Source: Bacteroidota bacterium
GTDB lineage: Bacteria; Bacteroidota; Bacteroidia; Sphingobacteriales; Sphingobacteriaceae
Assembly: GCA_018267005.1 (NCBI GenBank)
Contig: JAFDZK010000005.1
Coordinates: forward strand, 1-38,647
Length of the DNA: 38,647 nucleotides
Reading direction: 5' to 3'
Made by a program: the position numbers and the translations under genes. Within the stretch, counting starts at the first letter, position 1; each line of letters starts with the position of its first letter. This document shows, piece after piece, positions 1 to 38,273 of the stretch. The notes under the pieces were generated by a model. That model had not been told where the DNA came from. It ran no database searches and saw only the letters and a list, made by a program, of their open reading frames with translations.

Positions 1-1051
1 TTCGCTTTGGTCTTTCCGCTCCCAGGATCACAGCCCATTGTTTGTATTTTTCCGAGCTATCGAACATAACCTTCAGGATAGAGAGTATGGGCATGGCCAG
101 GAACATTCCCGATATTCCGGCAATCGCTCCGCCTGCAATGATCCCAACGATTGAAACGAGCGCATTGATCTTCACCTGGCCGCCCACGATACGGGGCATC
201 AGGATATTATTATCCAGGAACTGAACGACTGTGATGGCGGCCAGGACAATTAGAATGTCAGTTAAATTTTCAGATCCTGCAAGGGTTATAATAACGCCGA
301 GAATATTACCTATAAGCGCGCCCAGATAAGGTATGAGATTCAAAAAAGCAAATAAAAGGCCGATCAAAAGCGCATTCTTTATACCGAATAAGGCCAGCGA
401 ACCTCCGAGTAATAGTGTAATGTAACCTATCTGTATGGCAAGACCGAACAGGTAGTGTTTGACCATTTTTTCGATTTGTATAACGCTTTCGGAAACTTTG
501 GGCTGTTCGGCAGGCGTAAACCAAAGCAATACGAATTTTAAAAAGATGTTTCGGTAAAACATTACCAGGTAGGTATACACCGGTAACAGACCAAAGAATA
601 TTACCGCATTTGTTAACGATCCGAGCGCGCCTTTGATCAGTCCTTCGAGACCGCTGAAAAATTTGCTGCTCTGTTCGTTGATAAATTTAAGCTGGTCTTT
701 GGGCGCAAAGCCGAAGGAGCGGCTGATCCACATACTCAGATGGTCTAAATGGAGCGCGACATTTCGCTGGATTTGTGTAAGATCGCTCAAAAGCGCCGCA
801 ACCCGGTCGGAAAACAACCAGATCACGGCTATTATCAATATTGTTAGCAAAAGAATCGGAAGAAAAATCGCTATTACTTCGGGCACTTTAAGCTTCCTGA
901 AAAAGCGAAAAAGCGGCATCAGCAGCAGTCCAAAGAAAAAAGCCATCACCAATGGCATGATGACCGTGCTTCCCTGTGCTATGACTAAAACGACGAGGCA
1001 TAGCCCAAGCAACTCGAGCGATCTTCGCACGGTTAGCGGTATTTCTTTCAT
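1..1051 (-). CDS. AI-2E family transporter (PerM-like), C-terminus cut by window edge
   Basis: Reading the minus strand from an ATG at 1051 gives about 350 residues open to the window edge. The protein is very hydrophobic: a TM pair near the N-terminus, a central soluble segment rich in amphipathic helix, then a cluster of C-terminal TM helices containing an LIPYLGALIG-like stretch and an NNILMPRIVGG-like stretch. Both are characteristic of the AI-2E/PerM family, whose members export small molecules or exchange ions; the substrate cannot be read from sequence. The start overlaps the stop of the P-type ATPase by 4 bp (ATGA), so translation is probably coupled and the two form one transcript. 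The family call is firm and the function open. The C-terminal end is missing. Confidence 0.85.
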   Translation of the reverse strand, partial: MKEIPLTVRRSLELLGLCLVVLVIAQGSTVIMPLVMAFFFGLLLMPLFRFFRKLKVPEVIAIFLPILLLTILIIAVIWLFSDRVAALLSDLTQIQRNVALHLDHLSMWISRSFGFAPKDQLKFINEQSSKFFSGLEGLIKGALGSLTNAVIFFGLLPVYTYLVMFYRNIFLKFVLLWFTPAEQPKVSESVIQIEKMVKHYLFGLAIQIGYITLLLGGSLALFGIKNALLIGLLFAFLNLIPYLGALIGNILGVIITLAGSENLTDILIVLAAITVVQFLDNNILMPRIVGGQVKINALVSIVGIIAGGAIAGISGMFLAMPILSILKVMFDSSEKYKQWAVILGAERPKR

Positions 1052-3711
1052 CTCTTCGAGGTTTTGACAACAACAAACTTGCCCGACTGTATCAGGATAA
1101 GCGGCACAAGGCCGGCGGCAATACAAATAAGCCACGACTGCCCAGGCATCAAGGCCAGGTTAAGCACCGAACTCATTTGAGGAACAACATATGCCAAAGC
1201 GACGATCAGCAAGCAGAGCAGGATTGCCCACCACACAAATTTGTTCCTGGTGACTTCATTGGAAAATATCCGGGAGCGTTCATGAGGCATGTTGAAAACA
1301 TGAGCCAGTTGTGCGAACGTGAGTGTAAAAAATGCAACATTGTTCAAAGTCGCGGGCGTGTATCCCAGGTAGCTGCTGTATTTGACTACCCCGATAACAG
1401 TCGTCGTCATAACAGCGGCGTACAGGATGATCTTTAACCATTTGTCCCGGTGCAATATTTCTTTGCCGGGATCGCGGGGTACCCGAAGCATAACGTTGTG
1501 ATCGGCCTTACCTAAGCCCAGCGCTAACGCGGGGAATACGTCCGTTACTACGTTAAGAAATAATATCTGCAAAGGCAAAAGCGTCGCAGCGGGCATAATA
1601 ACGCCCAGCAAAGTAATGGTCAGTATTTCAGCGAGGTTGCATGAGACAAGGTAGACCACAAACTTTTGAATGTTCTGAAAAATTGTCCTTCCCTGTGCAA
1701 TTGCTTCAGTAATGGAGGCAAAAGAATCATCCTTCAGCACGATATCGGCCGTTTCCCGCGCTACCTGCGTCCCGCGAAGCCCCATGGCGATCCCGATATC
1801 GGCTTTTTTTAGCGCGGGGGCATCGTTTATGCCGTCTCCGGTCATCGCCACAATGTAACCTGCCTCCTTATAAATAGCTGCGATGTCAAGCTTTTGTTGC
1901 GGCGTCGTTCGCGCGAACACCGCTGCGTTCAGTATTTTCTTTTTCCACTCCGGCGTTATCTCCTTTACACCGGGAAGCAGTTTCCCGCTGACCACGTTAG
2001 TTTCAGCCTCCGTTGCCAGGCCGACTTTGCGGGCAATGTTTAATGCCGTATGCGGATGGTCGCCCGTGATCATTACCACACGAATTCCAGCGCGCAGGCA
2101 GCGGTGAATGGCATCTTTAACATCGGCACGGGGAGGGTCGAGAAAGCCGGCAAGCCCTGCGAATATTAAACCGTCTGAAAATCCATGATGGTCTAACGGC
2201 ATATCTTCCTTCCAGGCCAACGCCAGTACGCGCAGCCCTTGCTGCGCCATATCGTCGGCCTGCCGGAGTATGTGCTCGTAATCAGTTGGTGTTAATTTGC
2301 GTACCTGCTGGCCCGATTGCATGCGGTCGCATATTTTTAGTAGCTGCTCCGCGGCGCCTTTGGCTGCGGTCAGATATCCTTTCGGGCCTTTGTGCAAAGT
2401 GATCATCATCATGGTTTCCGAACTGAAAGGGATCTCGGTAATTCGCGGATAGCTGGCGCGTATCTTATCCGTATTAAAACCAGTTATTTGGGCCAACTGC
2501 AGCAGCGACGATTCCATCGGCTCGGCTATCGTATGTCGCTGACTGTGCGCATTGTTACACAAAACACCCGCAAGCACTAATTTTTCAAGATTGACGGTGC
2601 TTTTTTCAAGCAGAGGCGCGTCGGAATCTCCCAAAAACGTGAACGTTTCTTCCGGGAAGGTCAGCGTATTGACGCTTATTTTGTTTTCCGTCAGTGTGCC
2701 CGTCTTATCGGTAAGGATAACGCCTATACTACCAAGCGTTTCCACTGCCGACAGCTTCTTCACGATTGCGTTTCGCCGGGCCATTAGCAGCACTCCCGTT
2801 GAAAGGGCAATCGTAGCGACAATAGGCAACCCTTCAGGTATCGAGGCAACAGAGAGCGCAACGGCCGTTTCCAAAATCAGGAAGAGGCTTTTGCCCCGCA
2901 TGGCCTCCATAAAAATGTATAAAGCCGTGATCAGCAATGTGCCGTATATCAGCCTGCGCGTAAGCGTGTTCAATTTTCGGTTTAGCGGCGTAGTTTCTTC
3001 ATCCGGTGCCTGCTCTACGAGCGCAGCGATTTGCCCCAACTCCGTATTCTTTGCAATACCCGTAACGATAGCCCTGCCATTGCCCTTTACTACTGAAGCG
3101 CCTTTAAAAACCATGTTAATTTGTTCAGCCGGAATGATAGCCGGGTGAAGTGCCCCGATCTTTTTAAAAACCGGCTGTGATTCTCCGGTTAGCGCTGATT
3201 CATCACATTGCAGTTGCTGTACTTCCGCCAGGCGGCCATCGGCTGGCACAATATCTCCTGCTTCGAGGTAGATAATATCGCCCGGCACTATTTCGCCGGC
3301 ATCGATTACCGAGAGATAATCATCGCGCAAAACCTTGCCAGTTATAATTTCTAATTTTTTCAGCTCATCCATCGAATTCCTCGCCTGCCACTCCATCGAA
3401 AAACCTATCAGCGCGTTGATCAGGATAACTGCCAAAATGGATATGGCTTCCGGTATATCATTAAAATAGAAAGAAATTACTGCACCGCCTGCCAGGATAT
3501 AAACCACCGCTCCTTTAAACTGCCTGGTAAAAAGTGCGATTAAACTTCGGGGCTTCCTGTGCTCATAAATATTAGGGCCGAACTGTTCATGCCGCTTCCT
3601 GGCTTCCTGTTCGCTGAGCCCTCTTTGTAAATCGACGCGGAGTGCCGTTGCAAGCGCCCCGGGCTCTAAAATATAGGGTTGAGCTATTGGATAAGTAACT
3701 GACATCTTCAA
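1048..3711 (-). CDS. Cation-transporting P-type ATPase, P2A (calcium-type)
   Basis: 887 residues, full length for the family. It carries an N-terminal cation-ATPase domain (about 10-80), the actuator motif TGES at 175-178, the TM4 motif PEGLP near 290 typical of P2A Ca2+ pumps, the phosphorylation motif DKTGT with Asp335, and GDGINDAP at 625-632, followed by six C-terminal TM helices. It should pump Ca2+ or a related cation out of the cytoplasm at the cost of ATP. An alternative start lies two codons downstream (3705). The downstream AI-2E gene overlaps by 4 bp. The promoter is probably the perfect TACATTTG box 12 nt upstream with two Crp/Fnr-type sites. A P2A pump close to stress genes recalls CtpF of the mycobacterial dormancy regulon, but that is analogy only. 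Confidence 0.93.
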   Translation of the reverse strand: MKMSVTYPIAQPYILEPGALATALRVDLQRGLSEQEARKRHEQFGPNIYEHRKPRSLIALFTRQFKGAVVYILAGGAVISFYFNDIPEAISILAVILINALIGFSMEWQARNSMDELKKLEIITGKVLRDDYLSVIDAGEIVPGDIIYLEAGDIVPADGRLAEVQQLQCDESALTGESQPVFKKIGALHPAIIPAEQINMVFKGASVVKGNGRAIVTGIAKNTELGQIAALVEQAPDEETTPLNRKLNTLTRRLIYGTLLITALYIFMEAMRGKSLFLILETAVALSVASIPEGLPIVATIALSTGVLLMARRNAIVKKLSAVETLGSIGVILTDKTGTLTENKISVNTLTFPEETFTFLGDSDAPLLEKSTVNLEKLVLAGVLCNNAHSQRHTIAEPMESSLLQLAQITGFNTDKIRASYPRITEIPFSSETMMMITLHKGPKGYLTAAKGAAEQLLKICDRMQSGQQVRKLTPTDYEHILRQADDMAQQGLRVLALAWKEDMPLDHHGFSDGLIFAGLAGFLDPPRADVKDAIHRCLRAGIRVVMITGDHPHTALNIARKVGLATEAETNVVSGKLLPGVKEITPEWKKKILNAAVFARTTPQQKLDIAAIYKEAGYIVAMTGDGINDAPALKKADIGIAMGLRGTQVARETADIVLKDDSFASITEAIAQGRTIFQNIQKFVVYLVSCNLAEILTITLLGVIMPAATLLPLQILFLNVVTDVFPALALGLGKADHNVMLRVPRDPGKEILHRDKWLKIILYAAVMTTTVIGVVKYSSYLGYTPATLNNVAFFTLTFAQLAHVFNMPHERSRIFSNEVTRNKFVWWAILLCLLIVALAYVVPQMSSVLNLALMPGQSWLICIAAGLVPLILIQSGKFVVVKTSKR

Positions 3712-3723
3712 AAACAGTTACTC

Positions 3724-3788
3724 CAAATGTAATGATGGGAAACAAGGGAATATCTGACACAAAACAGGCTCAATAATGATAAGAGTCA
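3724..3788 (-). promoter_or_regulatory. Predicted promoter and twin Crp/Fnr-type sites of the P-type ATPase operon
   Basis: On the minus strand a perfect Bacteroidota -7 box, TACATTTG, occupies 3731-3724. A degenerate palindrome (plus strand TGA-CACAAA-ACA, 3755-3766) ends 23 nt before it. A perfect palindrome AATAATGA-N6-TCATTATT (TGA-N6-TCA core 3777-3788) lies exactly 22 bp further upstream, centre to centre. The layout matches five other promoters in the window. Inferred start of transcription is near 3720, which places the sites near -41 and -63, as for class II and class I activators. Confidence 0.6.
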
Positions 3789-3822
3789 TTATTTGGGCCA
3801 GCGGCCTGATATTAACGAAAAC

Positions 3823-3887
3823 TGATAAAACTCACTATCTTTTATGATGGCAATCAGTGCCTTATCCTTTGATGCAGTCTACTTTTA
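3823..3887 (+). promoter_or_regulatory. Predicted promoter and twin Crp/Fnr-type sites of the LolA-ABC operon
   Basis: Two perfect TGA-N6-TCA sites are seen: TGATAAAACTCA at 3823-3834 and TGATGGCAATCA at 3845-3856, 22 bp apart centre to centre. The -7 box TACTTTTA (3880-3887) follows the proximal site after 23 nt. No good -33 TTG element is present, which fits activator dependence. The start codon is 9 nt (3897) or 18 nt (3906) beyond the box. Confidence 0.6.
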
Positions 3888-3896
3888 GGTTAAATA

Positions 3897-4649
3897 ATGC
3901 CTGACATGAGACTACGTACACTATTCGTGCTTATAACCTCTCTTTTTTTAAGAGCCGCCGGACAGAATGCAACCGAAATCGTAAAAAAAGCCGATGATAA
4001 AATGCGCGGAAACACCATGCAGGCTGACATGGTGATCAGGACAATCCGCCCGACCTGGAGCAGGGAGATGCAGTGCAAAACCTGGATGAAGGGAAATAAT
4101 CTTGCAATGATCCTGATCACTGCGCCGGCAAAGGATAAAGGCGTTGTCTTTTTGAAAAGAAAAAAAGAAGTATGGACCTGGGTGCCATCGCTGGAACGCA
4201 CCGTAAAACTCCCTCCATCCATGATGGGACAAAACTGGATGGGAACCGACTTCACCAATGACGACCTGGTTAAGGAGTCATCGGTTGCAGAGGACTACAA
4301 CCATTCAATTGCCGGCGATACGCTCATCCAGGGGCGCACATGTTATATCATCAATATGATACCGAAACCGGAGGCGGCGGTGGTATGGAGCAAAGTGATC
4401 ATCTGTATCGATAAGAAGGACTTTCTTGAATTGAACTGCCGCTTTTATGACGAAGACGGAAAGCTGGTCAATACTATGAACAGCTATGACATAAAAACTA
4501 TGGACGACAGGTTTATTCCTACGCGCTTTGAGATGATACCGGCAGATAAAAAAGGGCAAAAAACGGAGATGATCTACAAAAGTGTCCGCTACAACCAGCC
4601 GATTGACGATAGTTTTTTTACGGTTGAAAAAACGCAAACCCTTTACTGA
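3897..4649 (+). CDS. LolA-like outer-membrane lipoprotein-sorting protein
   Basis: 250 residues with a short hydrophobic N-terminus ending near AAGQ, so a secreted periplasmic protein. A start at 3906 (MRLRTLF) gives a cleaner signal peptide; 3897 is the longest ATG start. The body matches the LolA-like family often annotated as outer membrane lipoprotein-sorting protein: an early VKKADDKMRG segment, a WxWxPSLxR stretch followed by KLPPSMMGQ, then a DxxFxxxDL-like region near 120 and a C-terminal PxDxxFF. Such proteins form an incomplete barrel that shuttles lipids or hydrophobic compounds across the periplasm. It leads an operon with two permeases, an ATPase and an outer-membrane barrel, so it is probably the periplasmic carrier of that export route rather than the housekeeping LolA. 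Confidence 0.82.
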   Translation: MPDMRLRTLFVLITSLFLRAAGQNATEIVKKADDKMRGNTMQADMVIRTIRPTWSREMQCKTWMKGNNLAMILITAPAKDKGVVFLKRKKEVWTWVPSLERTVKLPPSMMGQNWMGTDFTNDDLVKESSVAEDYNHSIAGDTLIQGRTCYIINMIPKPEAAVVWSKVIICIDKKDFLELNCRFYDEDGKLVNTMNSYDIKTMDDRFIPTRFEMIPADKKGQKTEMIYKSVRYNQPIDDSFFTVEKTQTLY

Positions 4650-9015: not shown

Positions 9016-9040
9016 CAGCGTATAATGTCACATCTTTAAA

Positions 9041-9083
9041 TGACAGCCATCATTATTCATCCCGGGAATAATAAGGAGCTTTA
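9041..9083 (+). promoter_or_regulatory. Predicted promoter and Crp/Fnr-type site of the DUF302 gene
   Basis: TGACAGCCATCA at 9041-9052 is a perfect TGA-N6-TCA site inside ATGAC-N4-ATCAT. A -7-like box GAGCTTTA (9076-9083) follows after exactly 23 nt, as at five other promoters here. The position 22 bp upstream (9019-9030) keeps only the TCA half. This is the weakest member of the set because its box lacks both the first T and the final G. Confidence 0.45.
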
Positions 9084-9132: not shown

Positions 9133-9519
9133 ATGAAATACTATTTCAATAAAAAGATAAATGGAAGTTTCGACGATGCCGTTCAAAAAGTTACGGAAGG
9201 CCTGGGAAAAGAAGGTTTTGGCGTCTTAACAGAAATCGACGTCAAAGCGACTTTAAAAAAGAAACTCGGCGAGGATTTTTACAACTATAAAATATTGGGT
9301 GCATGTAACCCGCCATACGCGCACAAAGCATTATTGGCTGAAGATAAGATCGGTACGATGTTACCCTGCAATGTGATCGTCCAGGAACGCAAGCCGGGCA
9401 AAATAGAAGTGTCGGCCATTAATCCGATGTCATCGATGAAATCGGTATTGAATAAAGATTTACATGCTATAGCGGCAGAAATTGCTGCCAAACTAAAAAA
9501 GGTAATTAAGCAGCTCTGA
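9133..9519 (+). CDS. DUF302 domain protein
   Basis: 128 residues, no signal peptide and no membrane segment. The pattern FDDAVQKVTEGLGKEGFGVLTEIDVKATLKKKLG, then YKILGACNPPYAHKAL and a later LLPCNV-like GTMLPCNVIV, is the full DUF302 domain. DUF302 proteins are small soluble proteins of unknown biochemical role, often found beside oxidative-stress or sulfur genes. It appears to be its own transcription unit, with a Crp/Fnr-type site upstream and a hairpin downstream. Two cysteines (in GACNPP and LPCN) are conserved family features. Confidence 0.88.
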   Translation: MKYYFNKKINGSFDDAVQKVTEGLGKEGFGVLTEIDVKATLKKKLGEDFYNYKILGACNPPYAHKALLAEDKIGTMLPCNVIVQERKPGKIEVSAINPMSSMKSVLNKDLHAIAAEIAAKLKKVIKQL

Positions 9520-9535: not shown

Positions 9536-9563
9536 GGCACCGGAGGGAGAAGGCCGGGGTGCC
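9536..9563. repeat. GC-rich inverted repeat between DUF302 and ccp genes
   Basis: GGCA-CCGG ... CCGG-gg-TGCC forms an 8-bp stem with a two-base bulge and a 10-nt loop. It lies 17 nt after the DUF302 stop and ends just before the ccp control region. It may terminate the DUF302 transcript, but no T-run follows. Read on the other strand it resembles the CCCC-GGCC-CTCTCC intergenic palindromes common in this group, so it could be a relic of one. Confidence 0.4.
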
Positions 9564-9624
9564 TAAAATCATTTAATAAGATGACCGCTGTCATTGGCCG
9601 GTAAGGCGCAAACCATCAGCTTTG
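9560..9624 (+). promoter_or_regulatory. Predicted promoter and twin Crp/Fnr-type sites of the cytochrome c peroxidase gene
   Basis: Proximal site TGACCGCTGTCA (9582-9593), within ATGAC-N4-GTCAT. Exactly 22 bp upstream is TGCCTAAAATCA (9560-9571), five of six core bases. After 23 nt comes the -7-like box CAGCTTTG (9617-9624), which differs from TAnnTTTG only in its first base. The chosen ATG (9654) is 29 nt beyond the box. Confidence 0.55.
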
Positions 9625-12444: not shown

Positions 12445-13074
12445 TCATTGTAAAAGGCCGTGTTCCGTTATACTTTTGACGATAAGCTGGCCATATTCAT
12501 GCCCCAGGCTTTCCGAGTCGGATGGATTGAATGATTGCGTCTGAACAGAAAACAATAGTTTCTGCGTATCCATTTCATATACATTGCTTTCCCAAAAATA
12601 CCGTGTGTTCATTACATAATAGCCCGGCTCGTAAATGCGCCTGTAAATGGCGGTATGGTAGCCCCAAAAATGCCGGTAATAATAGCTGTACGGCGAATAA
12701 TAATAAATATGGCCGGGCACGTAACTCTTCTCCTTTTCCTTATCGAGCAAGACGATGGTTATCACGGCATCGACGCCGCTGTTTTTTAGTTTATTCATGG
12801 CGGCCTGCTCATCCATGCCATCAAAAGCTTTCGGGCCGTACTCGTGCAGCGAAGATACAGCGTTATATCCCAGGGCCTGCAAGTCTCCCACCATATGACT
12901 TTCCATGTTTTCCTGCAGGGTCCGGTCGGCGGTACGGATTAGGCCCAGCACCATGATCTTGTTGTAGCGCTGCGCGGCGGCGTCCGGCGCTTTCCATGCC
13001 GAAGTAATTCTCGATGTGCCGCAGCCTGTCATGAGCACCAGGCTGAAAACGACGAACGATAGTAAGGTTTTCAT
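12445..13074 (-). CDS. DUF4136-like lipoprotein
   Basis: 209 residues. N-terminus MKTLLSFVVFSLVLMTGC is a lipoprotein signal peptide (lipobox MTGC). SRITSAWKAPD followed by a conserved hydrophobic strand, then GVDAVITIVLLD and a Tyr-rich middle (YYYSPYSYYYRHFWGYH), resembles DUF4136-type envelope lipoproteins, whose role is unknown. It is convergent with the phosphorylase gene, 42 bp away. Its upstream region shows single TGA half-sites but not the twin-site layout of its neighbours, so I do not place it in that set. The family name is moderate confidence; the lipoprotein call is firm. Confidence 0.7.
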   Translation of the reverse strand: MKTLLSFVVFSLVLMTGCGTSRITSAWKAPDAAAQRYNKIMVLGLIRTADRTLQENMESHMVGDLQALGYNAVSSLHEYGPKAFDGMDEQAAMNKLKNSGVDAVITIVLLDKEKEKSYVPGHIYYYSPYSYYYRHFWGYHTAIYRRIYEPGYYVMNTRYFWESNVYEMDTQKLLFSVQTQSFNPSDSESLGHEYGQLIVKSITEHGLLQ

Positions 13075-13159: not shown

Positions 13160-13657
13160 CTATTTGCTTTTGCTGAAGCGCTCCACTTCACGTACTTCAC
13201 CATTTTCTTCACGAACCAGGACCAGCAGTTTGCCGTACTCTACATTCGCCAGCCATATGCTGCGGTTGTCCTGGTTTACCTGGATGGTGGTTGTTATTAT
13301 TCCGCCTTTATATTCGCGATTGATCTTTTCCGCGATGTCGGCCGGCAGGTTTCTTCCGGTCCCATAAGCCAAATGGTAATACAGATATCCGTTCTTATCA
13401 TACAGCGCGTGATTTTTTTGCTCATTGGAGATAAATTTTACCAGGTAATTTTTATCGATCTTGTACCAGGTATGGCTGACCACGTCTTTGAACTTTTCGT
13501 GGAATGCGTCACTAACTTTTTGATTCACATAAGATTTGGCCGTAATTACAACCATAGGCAGAGTGTCCACTTTGGCCACTTCCTGGGCATAGGAGCTTTG
13601 CACCGATAGCAAAACCATCAGGACGCCCATTGCCTGGCAATACAATAATTTTTTCAT
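13160..13657 (-). CDS. Secreted PepSY-like protein, function unknown
   Basis: 165 residues from ATG 13657 (16 upstream codons in frame are non-coding leader). The N-terminus MKKLLYCQAMGVLMVLLSVQSSYAQ is a signal peptide. The rest contains VSDAFHEKFKDVVSHTWYKIDKNYLVKFISNEQKNHALYDKNGYLYYHL, the repeating pattern of Bacteroidota PepSY-like (BT_3222-type) periplasmic proteins, with EVREVERFSKSK at the end. These may bind or inhibit periplasmic partners, but no activity is established. It is divergent from the universal stress protein and appears to share a twin Crp/Fnr-type operator with it. Confidence 0.65.
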   Translation of the reverse strand: MKKLLYCQAMGVLMVLLSVQSSYAQEVAKVDTLPMVVITAKSYVNQKVSDAFHEKFKDVVSHTWYKIDKNYLVKFISNEQKNHALYDKNGYLYYHLAYGTGRNLPADIAEKINREYKGGIITTTIQVNQDNRSIWLANVEYGKLLVLVREENGEVREVERFSKSK

Positions 13658-13689: not shown

Positions 13690-13785
13690 CAAAGTTTGAG
13701 CACAATAGACTGTTTTCAAATGATTTATGTCATTTGCTAACCTGACTTGCATCATTTATCTCCTGTAAAACATCCCGAATATTTG
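13690..13785. promoter_or_regulatory. Divergent control region: two Crp/Fnr-type sites shared by two promoters
   Basis: Sites TGATTTATGTCA (13721-13732, in AAATGA-N6-TCATTT) and TGACTTGCATCA (13743-13754) are 22 bp apart centre to centre. To the right, box AATATTTG (13778-13785) begins after 23 nt and points to the universal stress protein. To the left, the minus-strand box AAACTTTG (13697-13690) begins after 23 nt and points to the PepSY-like gene. Each site is therefore proximal to one promoter and distal to the other. Both boxes differ from TAnnTTTG only in the first base. Confidence 0.65.
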
Positions 13786-13816
13786 TGATTATAAATCATT
13801 CATCCGGGCTTTGATC

Positions 13817-14686
13817 ATGGGAAATATTCTCGTTTTGACCGATTTTTCAGAAAACTCATTCAGGGCAGCGGAATGGGCTTTACTATTGGCTGAAAAGAGC
13901 CGCGCCAGGCTGGTTATATTTCACAGCTACCTCGGCGTTCCGGTAATTCCGTACGACACTTACACGGGTCAGGGCTCCGAACCGGAGCCACTTATGAGGA
14001 TAGACGAAGAATTCAAACAAGCGCTTTCGGAATTTGCGCAGCGCCTGGAACATAAAGCTGCCGAAAACGATTCAAATAACTTCACGCCGGTCATTGAAAC
14101 CGAATTGGGTGAAGGCAATCTCGGAATTAATGTCAAAGAATTAATTGAAAAAAAGGACATTGAATTGGTGGTAATGGGATCAACGGAAAAAACACGCTTC
14201 GGCCACCTGCTTATGGGCAATAAGATCGGCCAGGTAATCGAAAAAGTTAACACACCTGTTTTAATCGTGCCTGTACAATCGCGGCCCGCCCGACTGGAGA
14301 AAGTTACTTTCGCGGTAAATTTCGACAATTCCGAAATACGGGCATTCCATCTCCTGGCTCATCTTTCCGAGCGATTCGGCTTTAGCGTCGAGGTTGTCCA
14401 CATAATCACAGCGGGCGAAAGTTACAACGATGAGGCAAAACGCGCCCTCATGGATAAATTAAACAATGGCAACCGGATAGTCAACCTGGGTTATCATGCC
14501 GTGAAAGGCACAGCCGTCCTTGCGCGGCTCAAACGCGAATGCAAAAAAAATGGCTGCGATTTACTGGCTATGACGCACCGGCAGTATAGCTTACTGCAAA
14601 GAATGTTTCATAAAAGCACCGCCCGTGCGGCATTGCACGACCAAAAGTTGCCCCTTTTGATCTTTCCCTCAAAAGCAGAAGAATAA
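13817..14686 (+). CDS. Universal stress protein, two tandem UspA domains
   Basis: 289 residues from ATG 13817 (a TTG two codons upstream is less likely). Domain 1 covers about 1-150: ILVLTDFSENSFRAAEWALLLAEK opens it and VVMGSTEKTRFGHLLMGNKIGQVIEKVNTPVLIVP closes it, giving the G-x2-G-x9-G-S/T-like ATP-binding loop. Domain 2 (about 155-285) is weaker: it ends in LLAMTHRQYSLLQRMFHKSTARAALHDQKLPLLIF and lacks the glycines, so only domain 1 may bind ATP. Tandem USP proteins of this type accumulate under starvation or low oxygen in many bacteria. It is followed by a membrane protein 30 nt downstream, likely the same transcript. Confidence 0.9.
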   Translation: MGNILVLTDFSENSFRAAEWALLLAEKSRARLVIFHSYLGVPVIPYDTYTGQGSEPEPLMRIDEEFKQALSEFAQRLEHKAAENDSNNFTPVIETELGEGNLGINVKELIEKKDIELVVMGSTEKTRFGHLLMGNKIGQVIEKVNTPVLIVPVQSRPARLEKVTFAVNFDNSEIRAFHLLAHLSERFGFSVEVVHIITAGESYNDEAKRALMDKLNNGNRIVNLGYHAVKGTAVLARLKRECKKNGCDLLAMTHRQYSLLQRMFHKSTARAALHDQKLPLLIFPSKAEE

Positions 14687-14716: not shown

Positions 14717-15205
14717 ATGAACGCAGCGCATTATCACTTATTGGTGAATCACTTACCGATCATTATTCCGATAGCGGGGCTTTTGGTACTGGTTGGAGGA
14801 TTCATATTTCGCTCGGAAATTGTGAAAAGAACCTCTTTCTTCCTTTTTATATTAGCCGCATTGTCGGCGATCGCCGCATCCTCGACGGGAGACGGCGCGG
14901 AGGACGCTATTGAACATCTGCCCGGCATTAGCGAACACCTGATCCACGCCCATGAACGTTCGGCTGAAATTTTTTCGATAGTTCTTTATGTGCTTGGAGG
15001 TTTGTCCGTTATCGCGCTTTGGGCAAATTGGAAGCAAAAGTCGTATTCAGGTTTGCTGTCGTGGTTTGTTATTGGATTTAGCGTGGTCGTATTGTTCTTT
15101 TCCAGGCAGACCGGTACATCCGGCGGTGTTATCCGTCATACTGAAATCAGAACGGATACGACCGGAATTCAAGGCAATCAGAATCAAAATAACGACGACG
15201 AGTGA
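14717..15205 (+). CDS. DUF2231-like four-helix membrane protein
   Basis: 162 residues with four predicted TM helices (about 9-28, 35-53, 84-103, 113-132) and a polar, Asn/Asp-rich tail. The opening HYHLLVNHLPIIIPIAGLLVLVGG with a conserved His-Leu-Pro, plus a conserved Glu/His loop (EHLPGISEHLIHAHE), resembles DUF2231-type inner-membrane proteins of unknown function, sometimes linked to cytochrome or redox genes. The histidines in TM1 and the loop could bind heme or metal, but this is speculation. It lies 30 nt after the universal stress protein gene. Confidence 0.65.
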   Translation: MNAAHYHLLVNHLPIIIPIAGLLVLVGGFIFRSEIVKRTSFFLFILAALSAIAASSTGDGAEDAIEHLPGISEHLIHAHERSAEIFSIVLYVLGGLSVIALWANWKQKSYSGLLSWFVIGFSVVVLFFSRQTGTSGGVIRHTEIRTDTTGIQGNQNQNNDDE

Positions 15206-16421: not shown

Positions 16422-16673
16422 AATCGCTTAGAAATCCTTTTACAACGCAAAATAAGTTATTAAAAACCGCCTAACTCATGAAATTATCTAAAAAATAAAA
16501 CAATTTTATAATTAATTATTACCATTATCATAAAAATCACTTAAAACAATAAAAATTCAGGCGATTTTATTGACAAATATCATAAAATTAACTAACATTG
16601 CTATTGTAAATACATTTTCGGTCGCAACTTGGGTGTATTTATTAAAAATTGCTTTAACATTTAAAAAATCAGT
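16422..16673. other. AT-rich intergenic spacer between cobA and nirB
   Basis: 252 bp with no gene. It is markedly richer in A and T than the flanking genes and contains one FNR-like palindrome (16570-16583). A weak -7-like box TACATTTT is at 16611-16618. No promoter for cobA is obvious to me. Confidence 0.6.
16570..16583 (+). promoter_or_regulatory. FNR-like operator upstream of nirB
   Basis: TTGACAAATATCAT matches the FNR consensus TTGAT-N4-ATCAA at 8 of 10 fixed positions and contains TGA-N6-TCA. The only nearby -7-like box, TACATTTT (16611-16618), begins 28 nt after the TCA, not 23 nt as at the six promoters of the left block. A convergent gene for an FNR-like regulator lies next to nirD. 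Confidence 0.5.
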
Positions 16674-19166
16674 ATGTCGAAACCAACCATTATAGTAGTT
16701 GGCAACGGTATGGTTGGATATAAATTTTGCGAGAAACTTGTATCCCGGTCAACAAACTACAATATCGTAGTTTTTGGCGAAGAACCGCGCCATGCATACG
16801 ACAGGGTTCACCTGAGCGAATACTTTGCCGGCAAGACGGCTGACGATCTTTCGCTTTCGGCCGCGTCCTGGTACGCGGACAACGATATAACGCTTCACCT
16901 CGATGATCCGATACAGGAGATCAACCGGGCAGCGAAAACCGTTCATTCTTTAAAAGGACTAAACCTAAATTATGACTACCTGGTACTGGCCACGGGCTCG
17001 TCGGCTTTTGTACCTGATATTCCCGGGGTCGAAAAAGAAGGTGTATTTGTTTACCGCACCATCGAAGACCTCGATCTGATCAAGGCCTACGCAGTTAATG
17101 CAAAGAGGGGCGCCGTGATGGGCGGTGGCCTTCTTGGCCTGGAAGCTGCCAAGGCGCTGATCGACCTCGGCATCAGCGAAACTCATGTCATAGAATTTGC
17201 CCCCAGACTAATGCCCCGGCAGATCGACTCGGCCGGAAGCGCCATGCTGCAGGCTAAACTAAAGCAATTGGGTGTAAATATCCATTTAAACAGGAACACG
17301 GCCTGTATTACTGGCAACCATAAGATAGAGTCGTTAAAATTCAACGACGATACGGCATTACCAATTGATATGCTGGTTATAAGCGCGGGTATCCGCCCGC
17401 GCGATGAACTGGCTAAGCTGGCCGGCTTGCAGACCGGCTCGCGCGGCGGCATCACCGTAAATGAGAAAATGCAGACCAGCGACCCCTCGGTCTTCGCTAT
17501 CGGCGAGTGCGCGCTGTACGAAAACATGATCTATGGTCTGGTAGCGCCGGGCTACGAAATGGCCGACGTGGCGGTGTCGCAAGTGATCGGTTCAGAAAAG
17601 TCGTTCCACGGTTTTGATATGAGCACAAAGCTGAAGCTGATCGGTATTGATGTAGCCAGCTTTGGTGACGCCTTTATAACCGAACCCGAGTGCCGGACCA
17701 TTATTTTCGAAGACACGCACAAAGGCGTTTACAAACGCATCAACATCAGCAACGATGGCAAGTATTTACTGGGCGGCATCCTGATCGGTGAAGCCGAGGC
17801 TTATAATATGCTGCTGCAGACGGTTAACAACAAGATCGTTTTACCGCCAAATCCTGAAGACCTGATCCTGGGTTCGCGCGGCGGCGAAGCCGCGAATGAA
17901 GGTACAGGTGTACTGAGCCTGCCCGATGACGCGCTGATCTGCTCGTGCGAGGCGGTAACCAAAGCCACCATATGCGGCGCAGTGAATGATGGCTGCACCA
18001 CGGTTGACGGCATAAAAAAATGCACCAAAGCCGGCACAGGTTGCGGCGGCTGCGTGCCGCTGGTAAAGGACCTGATAGCGGGCACCATGAAGGCCAACGG
18101 GCAGTATATTAAGAATGTAATATGTGAACACTTTGATTATTCAAGACAGGAGCTTTACGACCTGGTTAAGATAAATGAGCTGAAAAGTTACGACCTGGTA
18201 CTGGATCATTTTGGCAAGGGCGATGGCTGCGAGGTGTGCAAGCCTGCGGTTGCCAGCATCCTTTCGAGCCTGTGGAACGACGTGATCGTGAAGCAGGATA
18301 CGATACAGGACAGCAACGACCGTTTCCTGGCCAATATCCAGAAGGGCGGCACCTATTCAGTAGTTCCGCGTGTGCCGGGCGGCGAGATCACCGCCGATAA
18401 ACTGATCGTGTTGGGTCAGGTCGCAAAAAAATATGGCCTCTATACGAAAATAACCGGCGGGCAGCGTATCGACCTGTTCGGCGCACACTTGAACGACCTG
18501 CCCCTGATATGGGAAGAACTGATCGATGCCGGCTTTGAAAGCGGCCATGCCTATGGCAAGGCATTGCGTACCGTAAAAAGCTGCGTTGGCAGCACCTGGT
18601 GCCGCTTTGGTTTACACGACAGCGTTTCATTCGCCATCGAGATCGAAGAAAGATACAAGGGGATCCGCGCTCCCCACAAGATCAAGGGCGGTGTAAGCGG
18701 CTGTATCCGGGAATGCGCGGAAGCACAATCCAAAGACTTTGGCGTCATAGCAACTGAAAAGGGCTGGAACCTGTATGTATGCGGCAATGGCGGTTCGAAA
18801 CCACAGCACGCGCAGTTATTAGCCAGCGATTTAGATAAGGAAACGCTAATAAAATATCTCGATCGTTTCCTGATGTTTTATATCAAAACAGCCGACCCGC
18901 TGACCCGCACCGCAACGTGGCTGAACAAAATGGAAGGCGGCTTAAGCTACCTGAAGAATGTGGTGATAAACGACAGCCTGGGTATTGGCGCACAGTTGGA
19001 GGAAGAAATACAGTCGCTGATCGATAGCTACCACTGCGAATGGAAAGAAGTGGTCAACAGCCCGGAATTGCGCAAACGTTTTGCACACTTTATCAACGCA
19101 CCGGAAGAAAAAGACCCGACCGTAAAGTTTGAGCCGATGCGGGAACAGTTGAAGGCGAAATGGTAA
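16674..19166 (+). CDS. nirB: NAD(P)H-dependent nitrite reductase, large subunit
   Basis: 830 residues, the normal length. An N-terminal FAD/NAD(P)H module (about 1-400, with VVGNGMVGYKFCEKL and the NAD-site MGGGLLGLEAAKAL) is followed by a BFD-like [2Fe-2S] domain (about 422-470, CSCEA...GTGCGGC), a second short Cys pair (CEVC) and the siroheme/[4Fe-4S] domain. The siroheme-cluster ligands are CxxxxxC at 637/643 and CxxxC at 677/681. It should reduce nitrite to ammonium in the cytoplasm with six electrons from NAD(P)H. It is followed by nirD. An FNR-like site about 90 bp upstream suggests control by the nearby regulator. Confidence 0.97.
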   Translation: MSKPTIIVVGNGMVGYKFCEKLVSRSTNYNIVVFGEEPRHAYDRVHLSEYFAGKTADDLSLSAASWYADNDITLHLDDPIQEINRAAKTVHSLKGLNLNYDYLVLATGSSAFVPDIPGVEKEGVFVYRTIEDLDLIKAYAVNAKRGAVMGGGLLGLEAAKALIDLGISETHVIEFAPRLMPRQIDSAGSAMLQAKLKQLGVNIHLNRNTACITGNHKIESLKFNDDTALPIDMLVISAGIRPRDELAKLAGLQTGSRGGITVNEKMQTSDPSVFAIGECALYENMIYGLVAPGYEMADVAVSQVIGSEKSFHGFDMSTKLKLIGIDVASFGDAFITEPECRTIIFEDTHKGVYKRINISNDGKYLLGGILIGEAEAYNMLLQTVNNKIVLPPNPEDLILGSRGGEAANEGTGVLSLPDDALICSCEAVTKATICGAVNDGCTTVDGIKKCTKAGTGCGGCVPLVKDLIAGTMKANGQYIKNVICEHFDYSRQELYDLVKINELKSYDLVLDHFGKGDGCEVCKPAVASILSSLWNDVIVKQDTIQDSNDRFLANIQKGGTYSVVPRVPGGEITADKLIVLGQVAKKYGLYTKITGGQRIDLFGAHLNDLPLIWEELIDAGFESGHAYGKALRTVKSCVGSTWCRFGLHDSVSFAIEIEERYKGIRAPHKIKGGVSGCIRECAEAQSKDFGVIATEKGWNLYVCGNGGSKPQHAQLLASDLDKETLIKYLDRFLMFYIKTADPLTRTATWLNKMEGGLSYLKNVVINDSLGIGAQLEEEIQSLIDSYHCEWKEVVNSPELRKRFAHFINAPEEKDPTVKFEPMREQLKAKW

Positions 19167-19248: not shown

Positions 19249-19602
19249 ATGGAAACATTAATAGATATCAAATGGGTAATGGCCTGCTACTGCGACGATA
19301 TACCCGAAAATGGCGGCGCTTGCGTGAAGCACGGCGATGAGCAAATCGCGATCTATAATTTTTCGCGCAGGGGCGAATGGTTCGCCACGCAGAACCTGTG
19401 CCCGCATAAACAGCAAATGGTTTTGTCGCGCGGCATGATCGGCAGCACCGGTGAGGCCTGCGAGCCTAAAGTGGCCTGCCCCTTCCACAAAAAAACGTTT
19501 TCATTGCTCACCGGCGAGTGCCTGAGCGGAGAAGAATTCCAGATCAAAACCTACCCGGTTAAGATACAGGACGGCAGGGTTTATATCGGCATTGCGGCTT
19601 AA
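19249..19602 (+). CDS. nirD: Nitrite reductase small subunit, Rieske-type
   Basis: 117 residues of the NirD Rieske-like fold. It keeps both halves of a Rieske cluster motif, C-P-H (Cys51, His53) and C-P-F-H (Cys77, His80), so it may bind a [2Fe-2S] cluster. It should associate with NirB in the cytoplasm and support nitrite reduction. It follows nirB by 82 bp of repeat-containing spacer. Its stop overlaps the stop of the convergent regulator gene by 4 bp (19599-19602), leaving no room for a terminator, so read-through antisense transcription is possible. Confidence 0.92.
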   Translation: METLIDIKWVMACYCDDIPENGGACVKHGDEQIAIYNFSRRGEWFATQNLCPHKQQMVLSRGMIGSTGEACEPKVACPFHKKTFSLLTGECLSGEEFQIKTYPVKIQDGRVYIGIAA

Positions 19603-20285
19603 CAGGCGGCAAGCTTTGCAAGACCTTCACGGTCGGCAATTGCGATGCTTTTGCCCGAAAGCCTGATCAGCTTTTCCTTGACGAGTTCGTTGATCATCCG
19701 GAAAACGGTTTCATAAGTTGCGCCTGCAAATGAGGCCAGGTCCTGCCGGCTGAGATCGATGCCGATAAAGCCTTTGTCATCCTCGCCAAACAATTCGCTC
19801 AAATGAAGCAACGCATCGGCAACGCGGCCCTTCACAGGCATATGCGCCAGGTTACGCATTTTTTTTTCGGACTCGCAAAGCTCCTCCGCAAAAAACTGCA
19901 GCAATTGCGCACCGAATTCAGCATTCGTTTTTAGTGTAGCCTCAAATAATTTGGTATCGATAAAACAAACCACGCTCGGTTCAAGGGCCGCGGCCGATAT
20001 CGGATAAACAAAATTATTGCCCAGTCCCCGATGGCCCACCATGGCGCCATCCTTTGCGAAGCGTATGATCAGCTCCTTATCTTCATCCCACTGCTTATAG
20101 ACCTTCAGGCTTCCGGCATAGACAAAATAAACCCCAGTTACCGGGTCGCCTTCTTTAAAAAGAACCTCGCCTTTTTTAAGTTTGATGTTCTTTTTACCCA
20201 AAGCAACAGCCGGTTGCCACTCTTTCAGACAGTTTTGGCACATAAAACAAGTATTTGCATCACAAATGGCGGAATTTTTGTTCAT
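19599..20285 (-). CDS. Crp/Fnr family regulator with FNR-type cysteines
   Basis: 228 residues. An N-terminal Cys cluster, CX4CX2CX2C (Cys8, 13, 16, 19), precedes a cNMP-binding-type beta-roll (about 25-130) with GEVLFKEGDPVTGVYFVYAGSLKVY, a dimer helix and a C-terminal winged HTH (about 150-215). Cys107 in ALEPSVVCFID aligns with Cys122 of E. coli FNR (ALETSMVCEI), which with N-terminal cysteines ligates the O2-sensing [4Fe-4S] cluster. The recognition helix reads YETVFR, keeping the Glu and Arg (192, 196) that read TGA in CRP and FNR. It is therefore a probable oxygen-responsive activator. It sits between the two halves of the nitrate island, divergent from the uptake operon. Confidence 0.9.
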   Translation of the reverse strand: MNKNSAICDANTCFMCQNCLKEWQPAVALGKKNIKLKKGEVLFKEGDPVTGVYFVYAGSLKVYKQWDEDKELIIRFAKDGAMVGHRGLGNNFVYPISAAALEPSVVCFIDTKLFEATLKTNAEFGAQLLQFFAEELCESEKKMRNLAHMPVKGRVADALLHLSELFGEDDKGFIGIDLSRQDLASFAGATYETVFRMINELVKEKLIRLSGKSIAIADREGLAKLAAC

Positions 20286-38125: not shown

Positions 38126-38273
38126 TTGATTTCGGATTATGACGATTGTACCGATTGGGCAAAGATACAATTTTGAAACGGACGCGATTGGCGGCAGCCC
38201 TATTAAAAGTGATCTTCGTCATTTCGGCCGGCCGCGCGATTACCGAACTTTGCCGCTTTTATAAAGCAACCGC

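Follow-up and report, generated by a model that had tools for sequence, protein, structure and literature searches.

Paired Crp/Fnr-type sites between divergent stress-protein and secreted-protein genes, and a putative microoxic regulon, in a Sphingobacteriaceae bacterium

At class II CRP/FNR promoters of E. coli the activator dimer sits at -41.5, and class III promoters add a second dimer upstream. Universal stress protein (Usp) and energy genes are switched together at low oxygen in the DosR regulon of mycobacteria (hypoxia and dormancy) and in the Anr regulon of Pseudomonas, which in this respect resemble the putative regulon described below. DosR is also alike in its haem-based kinases but differs in its DNA-binding family, which is of the LuxR/NarL type; the Anr regulon differs in having no kinase. 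In rhizobia, the microoxic FixL-FixJ-FixK cascade works through sites with the TGA..TCA consensus TTGANCNNGATCAANG and has the cbb3 oxidase among its targets (PMC4999443). Sigma-A promoters of Flavobacterium psychrophilum carry TAnnTTTG at -12 to -5, and cbb3 is induced at low oxygen in this organism; Crp/Fnr goes unmentioned in the main text of that paper (PMC9723704). Low-oxygen control in environmental Bacteroidetes is sparsely described in the open-licence literature that we searched, and we found there no description of a receiver-Crp/FixL system in Bacteroidetes or of tandem FNR sites.

We analysed a stretch of 38,647 nucleotides from a bacterium of the Sphingobacteriaceae (contig JAFDZK010000005.1; hereafter the window), in which a pair of Crp/Fnr-type sites lies between two divergent genes. 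As in class II/III promoters of E. coli, a predicted dimer at -41.5 is accompanied by a second one upstream; unlike there, one palindromic pair, at -41.5/-63.5, appears to serve two divergent promoters, and a single spacing is used almost exclusively throughout the regulon. With FixL-FixJ-FixK the system has in common a FixL-type haem-PAS kinase, a DNA-binding output of the FNR/FixK type, TGA..TCA sites, the cbb3 oxidase and the microoxic theme. It differs in that there is no separate DNA-binding FixJ followed by FixK: the receiver is fused directly to a FixK/FNR-type protein, and the path from kinase to target promoter would take one step. A further difference is the combination of rigid 22-bp site pairs with Bacteroidetes -7 boxes. 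The -7 box and its register are common to the double-site promoters and the F. psychrophilum sigma-A promoters (PMC9723704).

Architecture and conservation of the divergent region

The features of the locus and of the related promoters and genes are collected in Table 1. Sites A and B are 22 bp apart from start to start, leaving an N10 gap, and each is followed outward by a box after 23 nt; the preliminary description of this DNA had these positions and spacings right to the base. When the boxes were placed in the published Bacteroidetes TAnnTTTG register, -12 to -5 (PMC9723704), transcription was predicted to start at 13790 (+) and 13685 (-), so that both sites fall at -41.5 or -63.5 for both genes. 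This agrees with the earlier estimate that each dimer would sit near -41 for one gene and near -63 for the other. The predicted leaders are 27 nt (ATG 13817) and 28 nt (ATG 13657). Both boxes are imperfect versions of TAnnTTTG, yet they match the box of the regulon itself, in which the A and the TTT are each present in about 97-100% of cases and the final base is G or A. On both sides a predicted site centre lies near -41.5, the class II Crp/Fnr position, and the cores are palindromic TGA-N6-TCA, which a logo from 30 promoters extends to TGAY-N4-RTCA. Judged by their sequence, the two sites between the Usp and secreted-protein genes make up a single symmetric switch, suited to either gene.

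Table 1. Coordinates of the operator, its promoters and related features (window positions unless a contig is named)
Feature	Position	Strand	Remarks
Operator site A	13721-13732		TGATTTATGTCA, TGA-N6-TCA; predicted centre -41.5 for minus gene, -63.5 for plus gene
Operator site B	13743-13754		TGACTTGCATCA, TGA-N6-TCA; predicted centre -41.5 for plus gene, -63.5 for minus gene
-7 box, secreted-protein promoter	13690-13697	-	AAACTTTG (plus strand CAAAGTTT)
Spacer, minus box to site A	13698-13720		23 nt
Spacer, site B to plus box	13755-13777		23 nt
-7 box, Usp promoter	13778-13785	+	AATATTTG; identical in both orthologous regions
Universal stress protein	13817-14686	+	289 aa; Usp PF00582, E=8e-29; G008 orthologue 73% identical
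Membrane protein, second gene of plus unit	14717-15205	+	weak DUF2231 match below cut-off; order identical in G008 (L030)
Small secreted protein	13160-13657	-	165 aa; no known family; orthologues 80-81%, paralogue 43%
Probable lipoprotein, second gene of minus unit	12445-13074	-	209 aa; 86% identical in L030, order kept
Tandem-site promoter, 1 mismatch	3724-3788	-	precedes P-type ATPase-like gene 1048-3711 (name read from sequence)
Tandem-site promoter, 0 mismatches	3823-3887	+	precedes gene at 3897
Tandem-site promoter, 2 mismatches	9019-9083	+	precedes DUF302 gene 9133-9519
Tandem-site promoter, 1 mismatch	9560-9624	+	precedes cytochrome c peroxidase-like gene from 9654 (name read from sequence)
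Receiver-cNMP-HTH_Crp response regulator	C44:11716-12762		candidate activator; receiver PF00072, E=6e-29
FixL-like haem-PAS histidine kinase	C44:12767-13948		regulator gene lies directly behind kinase gene

In the genome collection, at the sensitivity used, the secreted protein was found to have close orthologues (80-81%) at two other loci only: L135 (isolate SZAS-84, whose sequence is the same as genome G008) and L136 (SZAS-83). In both, the gene is divergent from a Usp promoter. Neither locus has lost a site or a box, and the sites are still 22 bp apart with 23 nt to the box on each side; the preliminary description, which had proposed this check, thus passes it. The minus box at the 23-nt offset reads AAACTTTG in L136 and CAATTTTA in L135. 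Over the three orthologous regions the bases that define the arrangement are invariant at 12 of 12 positions, compared with 5 of 22 others (Fisher p=1.1e-5).

The secreted protein had been called PepSY-like, a label for which Pfam, NCBIfam and PDB profile searches gave no support: neither Pfam (E<=5) nor the PDB by profile (E<=1) gave a match, and NCBIfam (E<=0.01) gave none of relevance. An AlphaFold model built from 3 sequences was poor (pLDDT 51). For the probable lipoprotein encoded behind it, a family match was sought and none was found. The paralogue of the secreted protein (contig C143, L124) has its own perfect double-site promoter, and the secreted protein therefore looks like a genuine member of one regulon. 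On the evidence of their promoters, co-regulation of the Usp and secreted-protein genes appears well supported. The earlier claim that the same two dimers co-activate both genes is thus upheld for co-regulation, by the conservation of the region and by the promoter of the paralogue, while we infer that the effect is activation.

Recurrence of the double site and the content of the regulon

In the window there are 25 TGA-N6-TCA sites, against 8.0 +/- 3.1 in shuffles. We then searched the whole genome (G000; 4.77 Mb in 598 contigs), with the reversed pattern as control. The exact 34-bp sequence TGA-N6-TCA-N10-TGA-N6-TCA was found 19 times and its reversed counterpart 0 times; when gaps of 0-30 were allowed genome-wide, 19 of the 32 site pairs had a gap of 10. 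A box of the form xAxxTTTR was present at offset 23 on 17 of the 38 sides of the 19 double sites, whereas the mean count for any other single offset between 0 and 59 was 0.15. The complete 65-nt promoter (pair plus box), with up to two mismatches, occurred 39 times in G000 (control, 2) and 935 times across 60 genomes (control, 79). Columns outside the search pattern were also biased: both sites tend to read TGAY..RTCA, and the proximal one tends to be followed by a T. The combination of double site and box is beyond chance, and the double-site switch recurs at roughly 35-40 promoters of this genome.

Forty-three promoters have an exact proximal site and a box. A second site (at most one mismatch) was found at gap 10 in 25 of them and an exact second site at any other gap in none, and most of the remaining promoters had nothing recognisable at the gap-10 position. 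The genome seems to have two promoter classes, tandem-site and single-site, with the window locus in the former. Single-site class II promoters lacking a distal site were found at C121:5865-5907, at C102:7939-7981 and in the window at 38210-38252. The one just upstream of the stand-alone Crp/Fnr gene C121:5987 suggests self-regulation by a different Crp protein.

Two of the 19 double-site loci have an exact box on both sides, namely the window locus and C139:2546 (FtsH / pyridoxamine-oxidase-like protein); at C121:2766 (nirK / hemerythrin) the box is nearly exact on both sides. Relatives have two-sided pairs at L046, L057 and the orthologous L030 and L136. The symmetric two-way arrangement is recurrent, yet it is a minority among double sites. 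If only the proximal site worked for each gene, the locus would consist of back-to-back class II promoters with the second site serving the other gene, and the symmetric picture would come out alike. The majority of double sites, however, have a box on just one side and still keep the distal site at 22 bp, so the distal site is retained where no second gene needs one. We regard the proximal-site explanation as highly improbable.

Elsewhere in the window, the divergent region 3724-3887, between the P-type ATPase-like gene and the gene at 3897, contains two separate tandem-site promoters and no common pair, as well as additional degenerate sites in 22-bp phase at 3733, 3755 and 3777. A lone TGACAAATATCA site at 16571-16582 has no tandem partner and lies upstream of a nitrite-reductase-like gene at 16674; it is possibly a target of the Crp/Fnr protein encoded in the window.

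Genes directly behind tandem promoters encode the cbb3 oxidase (ccoNO), a copper nitrite reductase (nirK) with cytochrome c, hemerythrin, cytochromes c, three Usp and two Hsp20 proteins, FtsH and pyruvate phosphate dikinase. Tandem promoters also precede genes for an alcohol dehydrogenase, a fatty acid desaturase, an L,D-transpeptidase and a D-2-hydroxyacid dehydrogenase, the last being followed by hemN on the same strand. By its predicted functions this gene set is a microoxic/stress regulon, and because of its content and of the FixL-like kinase described below, oxygen would be the signal. The preliminary description had further suggested that the secreted protein may be a functional partner of the Usp in the same response. 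Because about 39 promoters, in front of genes of widely differing kinds, have this switch in common, the evidence supports co-regulation and does not extend to partnership.

Sites near -41 can repress in some systems, and those of this locus could be repressor operators, or a switch that favours one direction, instead of elements of co-activation. Their fixed -41.5 register together with a -7 box at 39 promoters, in front of microoxic genes, is nevertheless the geometry of a class II activator, and the sites cover neither the boxes nor the predicted starts. We give repression or one-way switching only a very slight chance.

A candidate regulator and its kinase

Five Crp-type proteins of G000 scored above the Pfam cut-off. 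One of them, the receiver-cNMP-HTH_Crp protein (receiver-Crp), is encoded together with a FixL-like kinase next to cbb3 and hemN genes on contig C44. The recognition motif ETVSR, which is of the FNR type and has the E-x-x-S-R helix of the FNR/FixK subgroup, was present in 30 of 30 members of the receiver-Crp family that were checked; so were the receiver Asp (CDIMMP) and TKPF. A receiver with its phospho-acceptor Asp, in combination with a kinase partner, is what is expected of a response regulator. FNR is among the closest sequence relatives of the protein, but in place of the FNR Fe-S sensor the N-terminus is a receiver domain, and a search of the sequence for an FNR-type cysteine cluster (4Fe-4S) found none. 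As predicted from its domains, receiver-Crp is distinct from FNR itself, the receiver replacing the Fe-S N-terminus.

The PAS domain of the kinase has FixL as its best match (E=1e-34). Residues aligned with what we take to be His200, Arg206, His214, Ile215 and Arg220 in FixL numbering are kept, and the alignment thus points to a haem-PAS with the proximal His and the distal-pocket Arg. The score against the NCBIfam FixL equivalog was 160.5 bits, below the cut-off of 850. By these comparisons the kinase is classed as FixL-like and not as rhizobial FixL. Two further stretches with FixL-like kinases are located at C143:1928-4848 of the same genome.

Kinase and receiver-Crp genes are adjacent in 45 of the 47 genomes that have the regulator. 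Regulator genes of G000, G049, G054 and G048 (two copies in the last) are followed by a double site at distances of 1, 10, 17, 48 and 77 nt. In G000 this tandem site (C44:11682-11715) drives the next gene, that of the D-2-hydroxyacid dehydrogenase; behind the G048 regulator the driven gene is probably a Usp gene.

Co-occurrence over the 60 genomes was tested for two of the Crp-type proteins of G000, receiver-Crp and the window-encoded Crp. With phylogeny ignored, the median number of 65-nt promoters was 13 in genomes with receiver-Crp and 3 in those without it (p=4e-5), and the numbers of exact double sites were 4 and 1 (p=4e-4, phylogeny likewise ignored). Some genomes (G011, G025 and G058) have the regulator and zero exact double sites. 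The window-encoded Crp was not significantly associated with promoter number (p=0.07, again ignoring phylogeny). It is absent (E<=1e-25) from the promoter-rich genomes G030 (31 promoters), G010 (30) and G050 (28) and present in the promoter-poor G021 (1 promoter). As it is neither necessary nor sufficient, we do not favour it as the regulator.

The one clear exception is G005, where we counted 14 exact double sites and 44 promoters. A receiver-Crp gene did not turn up in its assembly of about 600 contigs, even when sought via Crp-type HTH domains. The single clear Crp/Fnr of this genome stands alone and has a different recognition motif, ENVIR. At C301:6402-7873 a related kinase (46% identical) is followed by a receiver-only protein that replaces receiver-Crp, possibly as a side branch of one pathway. 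Either the receiver-Crp gene was lost in the 600-contig assembly or another protein reads the double sites in G005. This exception lowers our confidence in the identity of the regulator and leaves the promoter architecture unaffected.

G005 also lends itself to the alternative that two independent dimers of a stand-alone Crp/Fnr protein occupy each double site, the protein being, for example, the one encoded in the window at 19599-20285 or one of its paralogues (C102, C121). The family reads TGA-type half sites, and the window does encode a member. The distribution of the window Crp given above speaks against this, and independent dimers do not predict a gap of almost exclusively 10. Stand-alone Crp/Fnr proteins seem better suited to the single-site promoters, one of which lies beside such a gene. 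Binding by stand-alone proteins is in our view unlikely, and the regulator of the double sites is probably the receiver-cNMP-Crp protein and not the Crp/Fnr encoded in the window.

Proposed mechanism and implications

Taken as a whole, our preferred reading is that one Crp/Fnr-type activator, most likely receiver-Crp (C44:11716-12762), occupies the palindromic 34-bp double operator as two dimers and would in this way co-activate both units at low oxygen. We put its probability at roughly two in three. Which protein binds, that oxygen is the signal, that the dimers bind as a pair and that they activate instead of repressing are all parts that we infer. At low oxygen the FixL-like kinase would phosphorylate the receiver of receiver-Crp, and the receiver domains would then join two Crp-type dimers into a dimer of dimers. 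Such a complex would account for the rigid spacing of 22 bp, or two turns. The proximal dimer at -41.5 would meet RNA polymerase in class II fashion, supported by the distal dimer at -63.5. At the divergent locus each dimer would play both roles, one per gene, so that the complex could recruit RNA polymerase in both directions and turn on the Usp and the secreted-protein units.

A broader proposal can be made, although more tentatively and with its chances at somewhat under even. A shortened FixL cascade may be in wide use among Bacteroidia, with the receiver fused to an FNR/FixK-type activator. Once phosphorylated, the receivers would lock two dimers together, and this obligate dimer of dimers would read no sites other than those paired at two turns. 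The 34-bp palindrome would then be a self-contained, direction-neutral activating module, able to serve one promoter or two divergent ones, for respiration, denitrification and stress proteins at low oxygen.

With the strict rule of site, 10 bp, site, 23 nt and box, an unannotated genome becomes readable as a putative low-oxygen regulon, for which a probable sensor and regulator can be named. The rule also gives context to proteins without a known function, such as the secreted protein encoded next to the operator. If it is true that the receivers pair Crp dimers, a one-component DNA reader would here have been made into a two-component one.
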